DNA of 33,895 nucleotides from Bacteroidota bacterium (GTDB taxonomy: Bacteria; Bacteroidota; Bacteroidia; Bacteroidales; VadinHA17), in NCBI GenBank assembly GCA_030613125.1, contig JAUWMO010000003.1:1-33895 (forward strand), read 5' to 3'. Shown piece after piece: positions 12,263 to 23,666 of this stretch. Below the pieces are notes generated by a model. That model had not been told where the DNA came from and ran no database searches. It saw nothing but the letters and a program-made list of their open reading frames with translations. The position numbers and the translations under genes are program-made. Position 1 is the first letter of the stretch. Every line of letters begins with the position of its first letter.

Positions 12263-12925
12263 TTAAAAGAAGCAGGGGTATGGCAACATACAATAATTAT
12301 CTATATTTCTGACAACGGTATTGCCTTTCCAGGCACTAAAACGAACCTTTATGATCCCTCCATGCGATTACCCTGCATTATTAAACTACCTCATTCAAAA
12401 TTCATTAATACTGTTAGTGATGCAATAGTCACATGGGCTGATCTGGCCCCAACAATACTGGATTTATGTGACGCCATTCCGAAAAAGTATAGTTTTCAGG
12501 GTCGATCATTTAAGGAGGTCTTCGGCCAAGAAAAAGCGAATGGCTGGGATACCATATACGCTTCTCATACTTTTCATGAAATTACCATGTATTATCCCAT
12601 GAGGGTAATTCAAACACGCAAATACAAATTGATCTGGAACATTGCATCAGGACTGGATTTCCCCCACGCCAGTGATTTATTGGCATCCCCAACCTGGCAG
12701 AAAGCAATAAATCAACCGGAAAAACCATATGGAAAAAGAAAAATTGCTGATTGTCTGAAAAGACCAGCTTTTGAGTTATATGATCTTCAAAACAATCCTG
12801 ATGAAACAGATAATTTGTCATATAAACCCTAATATTCCGGAGTCGTAAATAAACTTAAGGGAAAAATCAAAGCCTTTCAAAAAAGGACCAAAGATCCATG
12901 GATTATCAAATGGAAGCATGAATAA
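12263..12925 (+). pseudogene. Sulfatase remnant: C-terminal part only, with in-frame stop
   Basis: Translation LKEAGVWQHTIIIYISDNGIAFPGTKTNLYDPSMRLPCIIKLP... continues to ...LSYKP*YSGVVNKLKGKIKAFQKRTKDPWIIKWKHE*; no N-terminal catalytic region upstream, TAA at 12260-12262. Confidence 0.85.
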
Positions 12926-13236: not shown

Positions 13237-15135
13237 TTAATCCCCTGAAAGCCGGACTCTGATTTCCCCTAAGTTGTTTTCAAACTTCCATGCCGGAATT
13301 CTTAGTTCAATACGTTTCAATCCTTCTATCTGACGGTCGAGTTCCAGCGGTGCCGGGTGTAAGGAAACTACTGAAATGGTAAAATCAGGATGTGACAGAT
13401 TTTCCAGTTTAAGTTTTTTCCCGTCTTGTTTTAAAACGGCTCCCCCTTTAACAATTTCTACATCGGCAGTTGTCATCAATTGCCAGGTAATCATTTTTGT
13501 TTTTTCTGAAAGTTCGAGTTTATCTTCAATAAGTAACGATGTTGGGCTGTCTTTTACAAACCTTCTTTTAACGCTTTTAAGCTGCCCTTCAAAAGTTGGG
13601 GTCATGTCGATGGTAACTTCCGGGTTGTTGCCTGTTTTAAAGCGGGCAATTGTTGCTTTTCCGTCAACAACATGGAACTGGTTGTTTACTGAAATTGTGC
13701 TGTGCCCGAAATTATTTTTGGTGAGTAATGTCCAGCGTTCACAATCCTGGCAGCGCTCCCATAAATTAAAGCCGGTTTTTTCGAGTTCGTGATATGACTG
13801 ATTGCCCGGATCAACTACCCAGCGTACTCCGTTTAATTCAAAAATGAATGAGCCACCATCCATATTTCCGTGATTAACAGAACCCCTTCCACCTTTTCCA
13901 CCAAAATAATATTGGTGTGGGTCATCTTCTCCTCCGGTAAAAATTACAATTGGATTTGCCCCTTCGCCTTTCCAGGCGGTGGGCATTTTAACTTCATTTT
14001 CCCCCTCATACTGAGAGAGCCAAACCAATCCGGCGCTCGCGTTGCGAGATAATTTGCCCATTTCCTCCGGCGAACGTAAGAACCTTTCTTTTTCGAAAAA
14101 CACTTTATTGCCGGTTTTTGCAGCGAACCAGGCCAGTGTTATGTCGCCATTTTTACTTCTTGAGACTCCACAGTCGGCAAAATTGTAATACCATCCGGAC
14201 GGTGCATTACACAACACCCTAAATACAGAGCTTTCCATAAACGAAGGATATTCAGCCAAACCAAAATCGGTGCCAAATGCACTTTCAAACATGGCTGCAG
14301 TTAATACTGTAAAACCGGTTCCGTAACCCCAGTAAGTAGACCCTTCAGGGTAAACACCATCGGGGCCATATTCCACCAAAGCATATGGCATTCCGTCCAG
14401 TGCACGGCTGATAGTTTTTACAGCCAGTTCCAGGTCTTTTTCGGCAATGGTAATTGCAGCGGCAATCATTCCGCCGTGGCACACCTGATTCCAGTTGTTG
14501 GTGCCTGTAACCCAACCGGTATTTCCTTTTTTATTATAACTCGGTTTTATCCCTTTTTCAATCAATGCCGTTTTGGCCAGTTCGATGGTTGATTTGGGTA
14601 GTTTCCCGGCAGTCCAGTCGAGGGCAAAAGCCACTGCCATCGACATTTCTGCCACATCGAGGTAGTGCGATGGGTTCCAGTCGGAAAAATTACAAACTGC
14701 AACCACTTCTTCGTTTATGCGCTGTAATATTTTTGGGTCTTTCTCAATGCGGTAAACCATGCCCAGCATGTTAATGCGGTATAGCATTTCTCTGGAAACT
14801 CCAAGCAGCCTGCGACCGGTTTTAATTCTTTCCAGCAGAGGTTGTTTTTGAATTTTGGCTGCATTTAACTGAATGGCTTTATACATGTTCTGAATAACCG
14901 GATCGGTTTTCAGTTTTTTCTTTAGATTTTTTTCAATGGTGGAATTAAGTACCAGACGGGGACTTTGTTTACGCAGATTTCTTTTCAGGTATTGGACCGA
15001 CATTGGGTTCTGCAATTTTGGTATCTCTTCGCCGGCAGATTTCGATGATGGATTGTTTACATTGGCTGTTGCAATAATTGGAACAATTAAAACAAAGCAT
15101 AAAAAACTTAGCAGGTAATTAAATTTTAATTTCAT
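13237..15135 (-). CDS. Heparinase II/III-like polysaccharide lyase, secreted
   Basis: Signal peptide; NWNQVCHGGMIAAAITIAE, SVNHGNMDGGSFIFELNGVRWVVDPGNQSYHELE typical of heparinase II/III-like proteins. Confidence 0.85.
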   Translation of the reverse strand: MKLKFNYLLSFLCFVLIVPIIATANVNNPSSKSAGEEIPKLQNPMSVQYLKRNLRKQSPRLVLNSTIEKNLKKKLKTDPVIQNMYKAIQLNAAKIQKQPLLERIKTGRRLLGVSREMLYRINMLGMVYRIEKDPKILQRINEEVVAVCNFSDWNPSHYLDVAEMSMAVAFALDWTAGKLPKSTIELAKTALIEKGIKPSYNKKGNTGWVTGTNNWNQVCHGGMIAAAITIAEKDLELAVKTISRALDGMPYALVEYGPDGVYPEGSTYWGYGTGFTVLTAAMFESAFGTDFGLAEYPSFMESSVFRVLCNAPSGWYYNFADCGVSRSKNGDITLAWFAAKTGNKVFFEKERFLRSPEEMGKLSRNASAGLVWLSQYEGENEVKMPTAWKGEGANPIVIFTGGEDDPHQYYFGGKGGRGSVNHGNMDGGSFIFELNGVRWVVDPGNQSYHELEKTGFNLWERCQDCERWTLLTKNNFGHSTISVNNQFHVVDGKATIARFKTGNNPEVTIDMTPTFEGQLKSVKRRFVKDSPTSLLIEDKLELSEKTKMITWQLMTTADVEIVKGGAVLKQDGKKLKLENLSHPDFTISVVSLHPAPLELDRQIEGLKRIELRIPAWKFENNLGEIRVRLSGD

Positions 15136-15184
15136 TTTAGTTGGTTTTAGCTTTTTTCATTATTTAAGTCTATTCCTTAGCGCC

Positions 15185-15345
15185 AATTTTGAGTCCACTC
15201 CGAAAAGTTTTTTTTGCCACAAAGACACGAAAGCACAAAGATACACAAAAGTTAAGGTACTGGAAATAAACCCTTTGTGAATTTTAGTGTCTTAGTGTTT
15301 TAGTGGCATTTTCTTTTTTTGACTTTTCGGAGAGGACTCAATTTT
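15185..15345. mobile_element. MITE-like element (15191-15339) with 6-bp target duplication AATTTT
   Basis: Terminal inverted repeats GAGTCCACTCCGAAAAGT / ACTTTTCGGAGAGGACTC; AATTTT at 15185-15190 and 15340-15345; interior ccacaaagacac-type arms also inverted. Confidence 0.75.
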
Positions 15346-18297
15346 TAAAGTTATTTTATCCAGATATTCCGGTTGAAGAGATATATTCTTCATATAATTT
15401 CCCCACAGTAAACTGGAATAATCCCATAAACTATTGATATACAAAACAGAACCTCTCTCATTTAAATTAAACCGGCAGGCTTTAGTCCCCTTGTCCAGTA
15501 CACCTAACTGGTTGTTGGCCAGGGTAATTAAAGTGTACGAATAAATGTATTCTTTCAACGAACGGGCAATATTGCTCAAAGGTAATTCCTTTTCCATGCC
15601 ATGGTAATAAAAATTTTTGTTATCAAATTCCCATGCGTGCTCCGGATATTCCCTGTATTTCATCTGAACCTTGTAAGTAATATCTATATCACCTTCAGGC
15701 ACGCCCAGGTGCATTGCCGGGTAAGCCGTCCAGTATGCATCCCTCTTCCACGCCAGCTTTTTAAAAGCCGGTCCGGTGAGGAATTTTATTCCCAACTCCT
15801 GTACTTTTTTACCTCCCGGAGCTCCTTGCAGGCTGTACTGAATTTGAATGGTTCCATTATCGTCTATAACGAGATGATAATCCACTGCAATTTTTCCGTA
15901 CTTTCCTTTTATAAAAATATTAGCGATACCCTCCTTAATTTCGTATTTTACATCATCCGGATGCCAGTTTGTTCCCAGGTCATCCATCGAAATGGTGGAA
16001 TAATACGGACGAGTACCCGGGACTTTCAGGTTCAACCAGGGTCCTGATTTAATCAGTGTGTCTGTACCAATACAAAAATCATTGATCAAACCACTTTGCT
16101 TGTTGAGAATAAAAGTAAATGCCTTACCTGTGAAAAGCACTATAGAATCATTATCTGAAACTACCATTCTACCGGGCTGGCAAACAGGTAATTCCATTTT
16201 TTTGGCTCCCAGGCATAAATTGTACTCATCAACCAGGCAGGTATCGTTCCGGTAAAATTGAAGTTTGATGTTCTCACCATTTTGCCAGTCGTTCCCGGCA
16301 ATGTTAATGGTTCCCTTTTGGTGTGGTGGAATACTCGTCTTTTTCATTATGCCTGTTTGATCCCGATACCACCATTTTATGCTTAACTCGTTAAGGTCTG
16401 TATGGTCGAACCTGTTATGCACCGGTATACTTATTGTTGCTCCTGGATGAAAATCTTCTATTGTTTTAGTGAGGACCCTGACAGGGGAATAAGCTTTTTT
16501 AGTATTCCAGAATTCCGGTTTCTTACGCCTCCAGGTATCGATGATACCCCATTCGCCATAACCTACACAATGTCCTTCGTAAATCGCAGGCAACACATTT
16601 TTGTCCATCTTACCCCACCAGTCGGTAAAGCCTGACAGTGTATCCGGGAGCATAAAGGTTTCATCAATATAACCCCAGATTGCTCCACCAAGACCCCCTT
16701 TAGATTCAAAAATATTTATCCACATACTGTCGAGGCTTTGTCCCCAAAAATTTCTGACATTCGGGTCAAGTTTTAAGGTTGGTTTATTGTAGCAGGCCAC
16801 ATGTGCCCATTCGTCATACAGGGCCGGCATGTCATCATATTCAAAACCTTTTGTGGATAGGCCCCATTGGCTCAAATCACCGCTTACAGGAGGATAATGC
16901 ATGCTTAAGATTTCAAAGCACTTTACAGTATCAGGAACATTTCCCGGATAACTGAACATAACAGGACGGGTTGGGTCAGTTCTTTTAACGAATTCATATG
17001 CCAGTTTAAAATTCCCGTCATACATATTCTCATTACCAACCGACCAGATAATAACTGACGGATGGTTTCGGTGATAATGCAACATTTCCTCAACCTGTGA
17101 AAGGTGTTGATCAATAAACTCAGGGCCTGACTGTTTTACTGAGCTATAATCTTTTGTTCTGTGCGTGTTTACAAAGCAAACGGCTGATTCATCTTCAACG
17201 TAAATACCAAATTCATCACAATAAGCCAGAAAAGTTTCTGATGGAGGATAATGAGAAGTACGGATAAAATTCATATTGGCTTCTTTGGCGAGCAATACGT
17301 CCTTCTTATCGTATTTAGGTGTGGTTGTCCTTCCCAGGAGCGGATGAATATCATGACGGCAGGCGCCCCGGAGTTTCACAGGGCTTCCGTTCACAAAAAG
17401 CTTATTATCTTTTACTTCCACTTCCCTGAAACCGATTTTTTGCGTTTTAGAATACAAGCTTTTACCGACAGGGTCAGACAATTCGGCGACGAGGGTATAA
17501 AGCCTGGGATGTTCGGCGTCCCACTTAAAGGGCTTCGACACAGAAATGGTAATGGTTTGTTTTTCCCCTGTAAGTTCAAATCGACTTTTCGCCAGGCTGA
17601 CTTTCCTGCCTGCCGGATCGTACAACCTGAAAATAAGTGAAGTATTTGTCTGAATAGCAGGCTGAACCTGAATAATCAGATTTGCATCCTGGTAGCTTTC
17701 ATCCAGATCAGTTTCTACATATAAATAATTTAAATGATTTTCAGGCAAAGCCATCAACCAAACGCTCCGTAAAATTCCCCCTATCTGGTGTTTTGCATAA
17801 CCACTGCCATAGGAAATTTCATCTCTTTTATCTGTGATCTCAACTGTGAGTTCTGCTAATTCACCAGGATTTACAAAATCGGTGATGTTACATTCCCAGG
17901 CTGTAAATCCTCCGTAATGCTCACGTACAAAATGACCGTTCACCCAAACACGGGTGTAGCTGTAAACACCATCGAACTTAAGTTTAACAACTTTGTTTTT
18001 GTAATCAGCCGGGATACTGATGGTTGTTTTGTAGGCATACGGAACATCATGTTTGATGGCAAAGCCCTGCATGGCACATTCGCCCGGCACCTGGATATCC
18101 TGCCAGTTTTCGGCTGAAACCTCGTATTTCCAGAACTCTTCAGGCGGATTCATAGAGAATTTCCAGTAACCATTCAAAGATATCAAAGGATTTGTCGTAC
18201 CGTACACCTTTAATCCTTCCTTACTATCATGATTTATCCTGCCACATCCCAATAAAAAAAAAGCTATAAGTAAAACAAAGCCAAATGTCGTTTTCAC
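15292..18297 (-). CDS. Glycoside hydrolase family 2 (beta-galactosidase/glucuronidase-like)
   Basis: Lipoprotein signal LLGCG; GH2 motifs LFVNGSPVKLRGACRHDIHP, NFIRTSHYPPSETFLAYCDEFGIYVEDE, SVGNEN (acid/base), YDEWAH (nucleophile); 3' end lies in the MITE-like element. Confidence 0.92.
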   Translation of the reverse strand: MKTTFGFVLLIAFFLLGCGRINHDSKEGLKVYGTTNPLISLNGYWKFSMNPPEEFWKYEVSAENWQDIQVPGECAMQGFAIKHDVPYAYKTTISIPADYKNKVVKLKFDGVYSYTRVWVNGHFVREHYGGFTAWECNITDFVNPGELAELTVEITDKRDEISYGSGYAKHQIGGILRSVWLMALPENHLNYLYVETDLDESYQDANLIIQVQPAIQTNTSLIFRLYDPAGRKVSLAKSRFELTGEKQTITISVSKPFKWDAEHPRLYTLVAELSDPVGKSLYSKTQKIGFREVEVKDNKLFVNGSPVKLRGACRHDIHPLLGRTTTPKYDKKDVLLAKEANMNFIRTSHYPPSETFLAYCDEFGIYVEDESAVCFVNTHRTKDYSSVKQSGPEFIDQHLSQVEEMLHYHRNHPSVIIWSVGNENMYDGNFKLAYEFVKRTDPTRPVMFSYPGNVPDTVKCFEILSMHYPPVSGDLSQWGLSTKGFEYDDMPALYDEWAHVACYNKPTLKLDPNVRNFWGQSLDSMWINIFESKGGLGGAIWGYIDETFMLPDTLSGFTDWWGKMDKNVLPAIYEGHCVGYGEWGIIDTWRRKKPEFWNTKKAYSPVRVLTKTIEDFHPGATISIPVHNRFDHTDLNELSIKWWYRDQTGIMKKTSIPPHQKGTINIAGNDWQNGENIKLQFYRNDTCLVDEYNLCLGAKKMELPVCQPGRMVVSDNDSIVLFTGKAFTFILNKQSGLINDFCIGTDTLIKSGPWLNLKVPGTRPYYSTISMDDLGTNWHPDDVKYEIKEGIANIFIKGKYGKIAVDYHLVIDDNGTIQIQYSLQGAPGGKKVQELGIKFLTGPAFKKLAWKRDAYWTAYPAMHLGVPEGDIDITYKVQMKYREYPEHAWEFDNKNFYYHGMEKELPLSNIARSLKEYIYSYTLITLANNQLGVLDKGTKACRFNLNERGSVLYINSLWDYSSLLWGNYMKNISLQPEYLDKITLKIESSPKSQKKKMPLKH

Positions 18298-18487: not shown

Positions 18488-18796
18488 ATGACAAAAGAAG
18501 AACTGTTACATAATGTTAAACAAACCGTGCTTGCATTTGATAAAAATGCAACGGTAATTTTATTTGGGTCACGGGCACGTGGAGATTATAGTGATTTATC
18601 AGATTGGGATTTCTTATTATTATTTAATCATGATGTAGATTCCCGTCTGATGCGTAAAGTTCGTGATAAGCTATTTGAAACAGAATTGGAAAGTGATCAG
18701 ATATTTAGTTCAATAATCCACTCGAAGTTTCAATGGGAAGCTATGAAAATAACCCCTTTTTATAAGAATGTGATCAAAGAGGGTATCAGGATATGA
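18488..18796 (+). CDS. MNT-type minimal nucleotidyltransferase (antitoxin-like)
   Basis: GSRARGDYSDLSDWDFLLL matches the GSxxxG-x-D-x-D nucleotidyltransferase signature. Confidence 0.88.
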   Translation: MTKEELLHNVKQTVLAFDKNATVILFGSRARGDYSDLSDWDFLLLFNHDVDSRLMRKVRDKLFETELESDQIFSSIIHSKFQWEAMKITPFYKNVIKEGIRI

Positions 18797-19176
18797 CGTA
18801 TTCTAATGAAGATCTTATAGAATATAGAAAAAGGAGAGCCTTTGAAAGTTTTGAAGAGGCAAAACTATTAGCAGAGAAGGACCATTGGAATACTGTAACC
18901 AATAGATTATACTATTCATGTTTTTACATTCTTACTGCTCTTTTTGCTAAAGACTCCATAAATACTTCAACTCATAACGGTGTTAAATCTGAGTTTCATA
19001 GAAGATATATTAAAACCGGTCTTATAGATCCAAAATTCGGTAAAACATATAACGACCTGTTCAACAGAAGACAAATTGGTGATTATGAGGATTTTCAAAC
19101 TTTTACTGAAGATGATATAAAATCTCTGATATCTGAAACAGAAATTCTTCTTAATAAAATCGACACATTACTATAA
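18793..19176 (+). CDS. HEPN-domain protein (toxin-like partner of MNT)
   Basis: ATGA overlap with the MNT gene; NRLYYSCFYILTALF and LFNRRQIGDYEDF typical of HEPN proteins. Confidence 0.85.
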   Translation: MTYSNEDLIEYRKRRAFESFEEAKLLAEKDHWNTVTNRLYYSCFYILTALFAKDSINTSTHNGVKSEFHRRYIKTGLIDPKFGKTYNDLFNRRQIGDYEDFQTFTEDDIKSLISETEILLNKIDTLL

Positions 19177-21815: not shown

Positions 21816-22064
21816 ATGGATTGGTATTACAAAAACCTTTCCTGCAAAATTAGTAAAAGTAATTACAACTCTTTTGATCAGGGAATCTCAGAATTATAGC
21901 CTTAATAATTGCACTTCAGGTTATTTCTTCATAAATTAGCTAACAAAAACGAATCTGACTTTTTACTATTTAGAGTCTGTCTATAAACTATAAATTGTTG
22001 ATAATTAGGATAAAAAGTCCATTGCTACAACAAAATTCCTTTGTAAATTACTAAAAAAAAAGGA

Positions 22065-23399
22065 ATGAAACTATTTGAAGATTTTAAGATTAAGTTCGAA
22101 AGGCCTGATTGGTCAAGGAATCTGGAGTTAGGATTAATTGACACCATCTTAGAACAGCATCCTCACCTTATCACCTTATTGGAAGAAGACATAACCAGGG
22201 GGCAGAAATCAAGTGTATTTGGCAGGAAAGACACTCCAAGTGTTGAACAAATAGTGCGTGCTGCTATTTACAAGGAATTAAAAGGGTTGGAATATAGGGA
22301 ATTAGAATATCATCAGACAGACTCGAGGATATGTGCGACGTTTATAAAGATAGATGATTTGCGACCATATAGTTTTCAGGTTTATCATAAATACATCTCT
22401 CAAATATCGTCGGACAACTTGCAGAAATTGTTGGTAGAACTCAACAAGATAGCCATAAATGAAGGATTGGAAGATATAGAAAAGCTCAGGCAAGACAGTA
22501 CCATTGTGGAGACGAACATACATTACCCGACCAACAACTCAATACTTTGGGATTGTATCAAAGAAGCCCACCGGTTATTAGGGCATTTGAGCGAAGAGAT
22601 TAACACGTTTAGTTACCGCGATTATACTACACAGGCTAAAAAGACATATTACAAGATCAACATTATAAAAGGGCAGGATAAACGAGTAGAGTTGTTCCGT
22701 AAGCAGTTGGTACTATTTGTAAAGACCATCAACCAGGTATCGAACGTGATAAAAAAAAATCCATTCTGCGGCATTGAAGCCATGGCGCTTATATTACAAC
22801 TTGAAAGGCACCTTGAAGTGATGAATTTGGTGTATGATATGGTTTACCTTAAGGAAATAAAAGGAGAAAAGGTGCCCAATGAGTCAAAAATATATTCGAT
22901 ATACGAACAACATACAGATATAATCGTGAAAGGGGGCCGCGAAGTAAAGTTCGGACATAAGGTTGACCTATGTAGTGGCAAAAGCAACCTGGTACTTAAC
23001 TGCCAAGTGTTGCGGGGCAATCCGTCCGATACAGAATTATTTGCACCGACCGTTGATGCCATCGTCGACAATTATTGCAAAGTACCAAGAGATTATGCAA
23101 CCGATGGCGGATATGCATCGTTGGTTAACCAAAACCATGCAAAAGAAAAAGGAATAACCAATATAGTGTTCAATAAAGTTGTGGGAAGCCTTCAAAACAT
23201 TGCTAGCAGCAAAAATATCGAAACACGGCTGAAAAAGTGGCGAAGCGGAATGGAAGCTGTCATTTCAAACATAAAACGGGGATATAATCTTGCCTGCTGC
23301 ACGTGGAAAGGTTGGGAACACTTTGTAGCTAAAGTATTATGGAGTATAATAGCATACAATATCAGGGTAATGACAACCCTGGTTGTCTCGCGGATCTAG
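22065..23399 (+). CDS. Transposase, probably ISNCY-type
   Basis: 444-aa ORF between terminal repeats; LRQDSTIVETNIHYPTNNSILWD motif and C-terminal RGYNLACCTWKGWEHFVAKVLWSIIAYNI. Confidence 0.85.
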   Translation: MKLFEDFKIKFERPDWSRNLELGLIDTILEQHPHLITLLEEDITRGQKSSVFGRKDTPSVEQIVRAAIYKELKGLEYRELEYHQTDSRICATFIKIDDLRPYSFQVYHKYISQISSDNLQKLLVELNKIAINEGLEDIEKLRQDSTIVETNIHYPTNNSILWDCIKEAHRLLGHLSEEINTFSYRDYTTQAKKTYYKINIIKGQDKRVELFRKQLVLFVKTINQVSNVIKKNPFCGIEAMALILQLERHLEVMNLVYDMVYLKEIKGEKVPNESKIYSIYEQHTDIIVKGGREVKFGHKVDLCSGKSNLVLNCQVLRGNPSDTELFAPTVDAIVDNYCKVPRDYATDGGYASLVNQNHAKEKGITNIVFNKVVGSLQNIASSKNIETRLKKWRSGMEAVISNIKRGYNLACCTWKGWEHFVAKVLWSIIAYNIRVMTTLVVSRI

Positions 23400-23423
23400 G
23401 TCAAGAAAAGAAAAACTTACTAA

Positions 23424-23444
23424 CCCCCTTAAAACTGTAAGGGG
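23424..23444 (+). terminator. Hairpin downstream of transposase, inside the IS
   Basis: CCCCTTA-aaactg-TAAGGGG stem-loop ~25 nt after the transposase stop. Confidence 0.4.
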
Positions 23445-23666
23445 AACAGGATAAGTATGCACTAAAAGTTGAAATATGCAGTGTTTTAATAGAAATATTG
23501 AGTATCACTGACAGTATTGAGCAGTAAGAACAAAACAACGTATATTATTTAGAATGACTCTAAGTATTAAAGGGAAAATAATCCAATTTCATCGACTTTA
23601 TAGACAGACACTATTTAGAGGAGTTGGGTCAGAGGGAATAAGTTTTATTTAATACATTCACTATCC

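Follow-up and report, generated by a model that had tools for sequence, protein, structure and literature searches.

A small non-autonomous transposon at the 3' end of a Bacteroidales GH2 gene, with the ancestral gene end readable beside it

Small mobile elements that rewrite the 3' ends of genes are already known from enterobacteria and from Coxiella. In Erwinia, an amidase gene lost its normal stop codon and gained a longer C-terminus through the element RU-1 at its 3' end (Delihas, 2007, PMC2759123). The QMITE1 and QMITE2 elements of Coxiella burnetii, described in 2018, inserted at the 3' ends of functional genes and altered their C-termini, generally raising the predicted pI; Dugway enhC, for instance, takes its C-terminal 33 residues from a QMITE element (PMC5896051). 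A further group of comparable elements, the IS1182-derived MITEs of Methanosarcina acetivorans (2013), measure 160-169 bp, occur in 7-14 copies and have 25-26-bp ends, and the sections of that report on which we draw describe no effect on gene ends (PMC3852290).

Here, we describe a MITE at the 3' end of a GH2 gene in a Bacteroidales genome, within a window of 33,895 nucleotides (the whole stretch of DNA that was analysed). As with the Coxiella QMITEs, a MITE at the end of a gene changes the C-terminus; unlike them, it belongs to another family in another host, QMITE2 duplications being 7-9 bp long, and one gene is affected rather than several. Like the enterobacterial elements RU-1, RU-2 and RU-3, it is a small mobile sequence fused to a gene end, but neither the sequences nor the hosts are related, and the RU reading frame crosses more of the element. 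The MITEs of the archaeon Methanosarcina, attributed in the sections cited to IS1182-family insertion sequences (ISs), are of similar size, but their direct repeats are given there as 4 or 0 bp, versus 6 bp here, and the ends of our element are 18 bp long. What is new is the MITE family, its link to IS1182-like ISs and the clean reconstruction of the ancestral gene end, and current understanding remains unchanged because the same effect is known from enterobacteria and Coxiella. The features of the locus are as follows.

13237 to 15135, minus strand: heparinase II/III-like gene (PF07940), the next gene on the same strand
15170 to 15184, minus strand: stranded ancestral end of the GH2 gene, codons GGC GCT AAG GAA and the stop TAG (GAKE, then stop)
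15185 to 15190, plus strand: target-site duplication AATTTT, left copy
15191 to 15339, no strand assigned: complete non-autonomous MITE of 149 bp, with paired ends, an exact 6-bp duplication and multiple copies in its own and related genomes
15191 to 15208, plus strand: terminal inverted repeat GAGTCCACTCCGAAAAGT
15216 to 15251, plus strand: left arm of the internal hairpin (GCCACAAAGACACGAAAGCACAAAG...)
15271 to 15307, minus strand: right arm of the internal hairpin (GCCACTAAAACACTAAGACACTAAA...)
15292 to 15339, minus strand: element-derived end of the GH2 gene, 15 codons ESSPKSQKKKMPLKH and the stop TAA (15292-15294)
15322 to 15339, minus strand: terminal inverted repeat GAGTCCTCTCCGAAAAGT
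15340 to 15345, plus strand: target-site duplication AATTTT, right copy, which also forms the last native GH2 codons AAA ATT on the minus strand
15340 to 18297, minus strand: native part of the GH2 gene, 986 codons, with a secreted lipoprotein-like start MKTTFGFVLLIAFFLLGCG (Pfam PF02836, PF00703 and PF02837); homologues align up to residues 986-988

Two other places in the window deserve mention. A 156-aa frame at 12362-12832 resembles, by its translation, the C-terminal part of a sulfatase and is possibly a truncated gene. At 18488-19176, the translations of two adjoining small genes resemble a nucleotidyltransferase (MNT) and HEPN pair, and the pairing of MNT and HEPN is a common toxin-antitoxin-like arrangement.

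The insertion of the MITE into the 3' end of the GH2 gene is real and clean. A sequence-only reading of this DNA had proposed an element at 15191-15339 with inverted ends and AATTTT duplications, and every coordinate checks: the inverted ends are 18 bp long and identical at 17 of 18 positions, and both outer edges abut AATTTT, an exact 6-bp duplication. No transposase gene lies inside, the longest open frame from either end being at most 29 codons. Short and gene-less, with inverted repeats, a target duplication, dispersed copies and a candidate autonomous partner, the element is thus a MITE. All six entry frames contain stop codons, after tails of 29, 25, 20, 15, 12 and 17 residues, all of them rich in Lys/Arg; therefore, insertion in any frame or orientation would soon end the protein, with a basic tail.

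Counts of further copies rest on searches of the host assembly (3.26 Mb in 390 contigs, 84% complete) and of related genomes. BLAST with the element returned 24 matches in its own genome, many of them partial. Seven complete own-genome copies share the same interior and have an exact 6-bp duplication, namely the GH2 copy itself (L084) and six more (L009, L010, L161, L165, L168 and L183), as anticipated from sequence alone; among the relatives, 18 of 60 gave MITE matches. A paired-end scan of the examined loci yielded 23 candidates, 19 of which, the GH2 copy included, are MITE-sized with an exact 6-bp duplication, the other four being a chance pair (L172), a full IS (L146) and two elements with one-mismatch duplications (L134 and L014). 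Those 19 elements, together with the 24 BLAST matches, exclude a chance origin. The duplications include AATTTT, AAAGTT, AATATT, AAGATT, AACTTT, AACCTT, AAATTT and AAGTTT, and 13 of the 19 exact ones fit a target preference for AANNTT. For these 13, the boundaries could equivalently be drawn at TTGAG...CTCAA with a 2-bp duplication inside AANNTT, leaving the same empty site; the 6-bp reading, which we keep, is favoured by the six elements whose duplications depart from AANNTT. The host genome also holds a second type of MITE (L138:1503-1681, on contig C254 of G000) that has the same ends and a 6-bp duplication, AAATTT, around a different interior (CTACAAATTGATTTTCACC...); L143, from 1501 (contig C185 of G000), is of this type too. 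Such elements suggest that one transposase may serve several MITEs.

On the minus strand, the GH2 gene now occupies 15292-18297 (1001 codons) and its product runs through YLDKITLKI directly into ESSPKSQKKKMPLKH, so that the last 16 codons, TAA included, are wholly element sequence; this frame bears out the earlier proposal that the final 15 codons and the stop come from the element. When the element and one AATTTT copy are deleted, AAAATTGGCGCTAAGGAATAG directly follows the LDKITL codons, and the frame reads ITLKIGAKE to a stop at 15170-15172, giving 990 aa instead of 1001. This restores the native end that had been suggested. It also agrees with the proposed exchange of four residues (GAKE) for a basic tail of 15, among which are five Lys, one His and one Glu. 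The gap between the GH2 stop and the heparinase II/III-like gene is now 156 bp, compared with 34 bp in the empty-site reconstruction.

Homologues of the GH2 protein were sought in 60 relatives and 393 genomes of the order. The five nearest (L085, L153, L086, L087 and L154; 43-56% identical) end in GRATIGINKD, GKVVLSVK, EVILKINTHSNRVGG, GQATLQF and GEMKIVF, respectively. They thus terminate 0-9 residues beyond the equivalent of LKI, and all five lack the tail ESSPKSQKKKMPLKH, in keeping with the expectation that orthologues should end a few residues after KI. For L153, L085 and L086, local BLAST alignment to the query ends at residues 986-988; residue 986 is the last one before the element. At such identities, the exact last native residues rest on the reconstruction. 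The same fusion of GH2 and MITE was found in no second genome among the 60 relatives and 393 genomes of the order, and a scan of genome contigs with the GH2 protein, at one genome per species, gave no match to a same-species empty-site allele.

As for the vehicle, ISs of about 1.8-1.9 kb with a distantly IS1182-like transposase carry the same ends as the MITE, with all 18 bases identical in several copies, and the two share these ends only, with no common interior. The transposase in G032 (L127, 579 aa) adjoins GAGTCCACTCCGAAAAGT, and that in G011 (L118, 585 aa) adjoins GAGTCCACTCTAAAAAGT. MITE-type ends accompany the IS in all of the relatives found (L127, L118 and L145-L151); the transposase is present in 8 of 117 genomes of the family, and a scan of named genomes revealed 63 relatives, most of them from Bacteroidales and other Bacteroidota records. 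Six intact ISs have exact 6-bp duplications (L199 AAGATT, L205 AAAAAC, L208 AATAAT, L210 AACTTT, L215 AATATT and L228 ATTGAT), L210 being the same element as the L146 IS (1862 bp, exact AACTTT duplication). Pfam DUF772 (PF05598) scores above its cut-off in both proteins, and the best curated NCBIfam family is IS1182, at 113 and 74 bits; these scores lie far under the cut-off of 270 bits, and we therefore use the term IS1182-like. A 6-bp duplication is no obstacle to the assignment, since the direct repeats on record for the IS1182 family range from 2 to 60 bp (PMC7335449). Searches of the host assembly (84% complete, 390 contigs) revealed neither the transposase nor the autonomous IS. The identity of the ends makes it probable that an IS1182-like transposase mobilised the MITE in trans.

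Another candidate lies closer at hand: a complete ISNCY-type IS occupies 21973-23611 of the same window (NF033593, 363 bits, above cut-off), and its transposase might have moved the MITE instead. No other ISNCY_1 copy was found in the host genome, and this IS starts with GAGTC and has a 6-bp duplication, TATTTA. However, its ends, GAGTCTGTCTATAAA and GTGTCTGTCTATAAA, agree with those of the MITE in the first five bases only, whereas IS1182-like ends match in full in several copies. Because it shares no more than its GAGTC tip and the length of its duplication with the MITE, we set ISNCY_1 aside as the weaker candidate and regard it as an improbable mobiliser. Less probable still is a repeat-mediated chimera that placed the MITE beside GH2 during assembly. 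The assembly is fragmented and the element repetitive, but a chimera would not yield an exact 6-bp duplication fitting the AANNTT preference, nor would deletion of the element then restore an in-frame end where the homologues end. It is also tempting to suppose that the basic tail is an adaptive innovation with a selected function, such as attachment to the surface or to glycans, given that it is strongly basic and sits on a lipoprotein-like secreted enzyme and that the predicted pI of affected proteins was raised in the Coxiella QMITE study too (PMC5896051). We give this idea little credence: Lys/Arg-rich tails of 12-29 residues arise from every entry frame, which makes basicity a consequence of the element's base composition, and the fusion is confined to one of the genomes searched and to one of the 22 complete elements. 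No ATG-started frame of at least 60 codons runs into any of the remaining 21. Such a ratio makes the capture of a gene end exceptional for this MITE family, and the GH2 case looks like a tolerated accident past the last conserved residues.

Overall, we are highly confident that a non-autonomous MITE, moved in trans, rewrote the C-terminus of this GH2 enzyme. In the scenario that we favour, a transposase recognising the 18-bp ends GAGTCCACTCCGAAAAGT would have moved the MITE, and a staggered cut, usually at AANNTT, would have produced the 6-bp duplication, in this case at an AATTTT overlapping the last GH2 codons. Translation would then enter the element for 15 codons and stop, converting KI-GAKE into KI-ESSPKSQKKKMPLKH. 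The predicted tail is presumably translated, and the insertion was probably tolerated because it lies beyond the last conserved residues.

The insertion may also matter at the RNA level. Folding of a transcript over the MITE gives a long stem (-54.4 kcal/mol, z = -7.7) whose 5' half contains the new stop codon, and a strong RNA hairpin would now stand between GH2 and the next gene; any effect on the mRNA is conjecture. For Coxiella, cleavage of such a stem by RNase III, with loss of the stop codon, has been proposed (PMC5896051), and the GH2 stem might possibly be cut and stripped of its stop in the same way. An Rfam match to a microRNA precursor (32 bits against a cut-off of 211) was taken as a long-hairpin artefact.

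Finally, we would like to comment on the core of the element (15216-15307), which is built of period-8 units CACNAAGN with arms GCCACNAAGNCACNAAG... At up to two mismatches, the core pattern matches the host genome 30 times, compared with none for a reversed control pattern. Many of these matches fall in a second MITE-like family with the ends ACGTGAGTTCGATATA; a few others belong to copies that lack both types of end (core loci beyond the GH2 MITE: L155, L156, L158, L162, L164, L166, L173 and L175; L167, L172, L177 and L179). Across the phylum, 64 of 396 sampled genomes contain the pattern when at most one mismatch is allowed, and some contain it tens of times; the reversed control stayed near zero in this survey, bar one genome with 24. 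Where inspected in other genomes, the core usually consists of one arm or a short pair and lacks the GH2-MITE and ACGTGAGTTCGATATA ends. Small palindromes (TCCGATAGCTATCGGA, CCCGAAAGCTTTCGGG and CCCGGTACAGTCATTC...GGGGCAGG) are nested within the core at L009, L010, L014, L155, L164, L166, L173 and L177, as if a smaller palindromic element had inserted into the core of both MITE families. A literature search with the core sequence gave, judging by titles, unrelated primer or oligonucleotide matches. One could speculate, tentatively and against the greater likelihood, that the core exists in its own right, as a sequence interspersed throughout the phylum that either moves by itself or binds a conserved protein, and that it was captured by at least two unrelated MITE families (GAGTCC... 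and ACGTGAGTTCGATATA...); the GH2 insertion would then be one by-product of it.

The locus provides a well-resolved case in Bacteroidales of a C-terminus rewritten in one step by a small transposon, with the ancestral end still readable alongside. Since the MITE family is tied to a probable transposase, the event could be reproduced.
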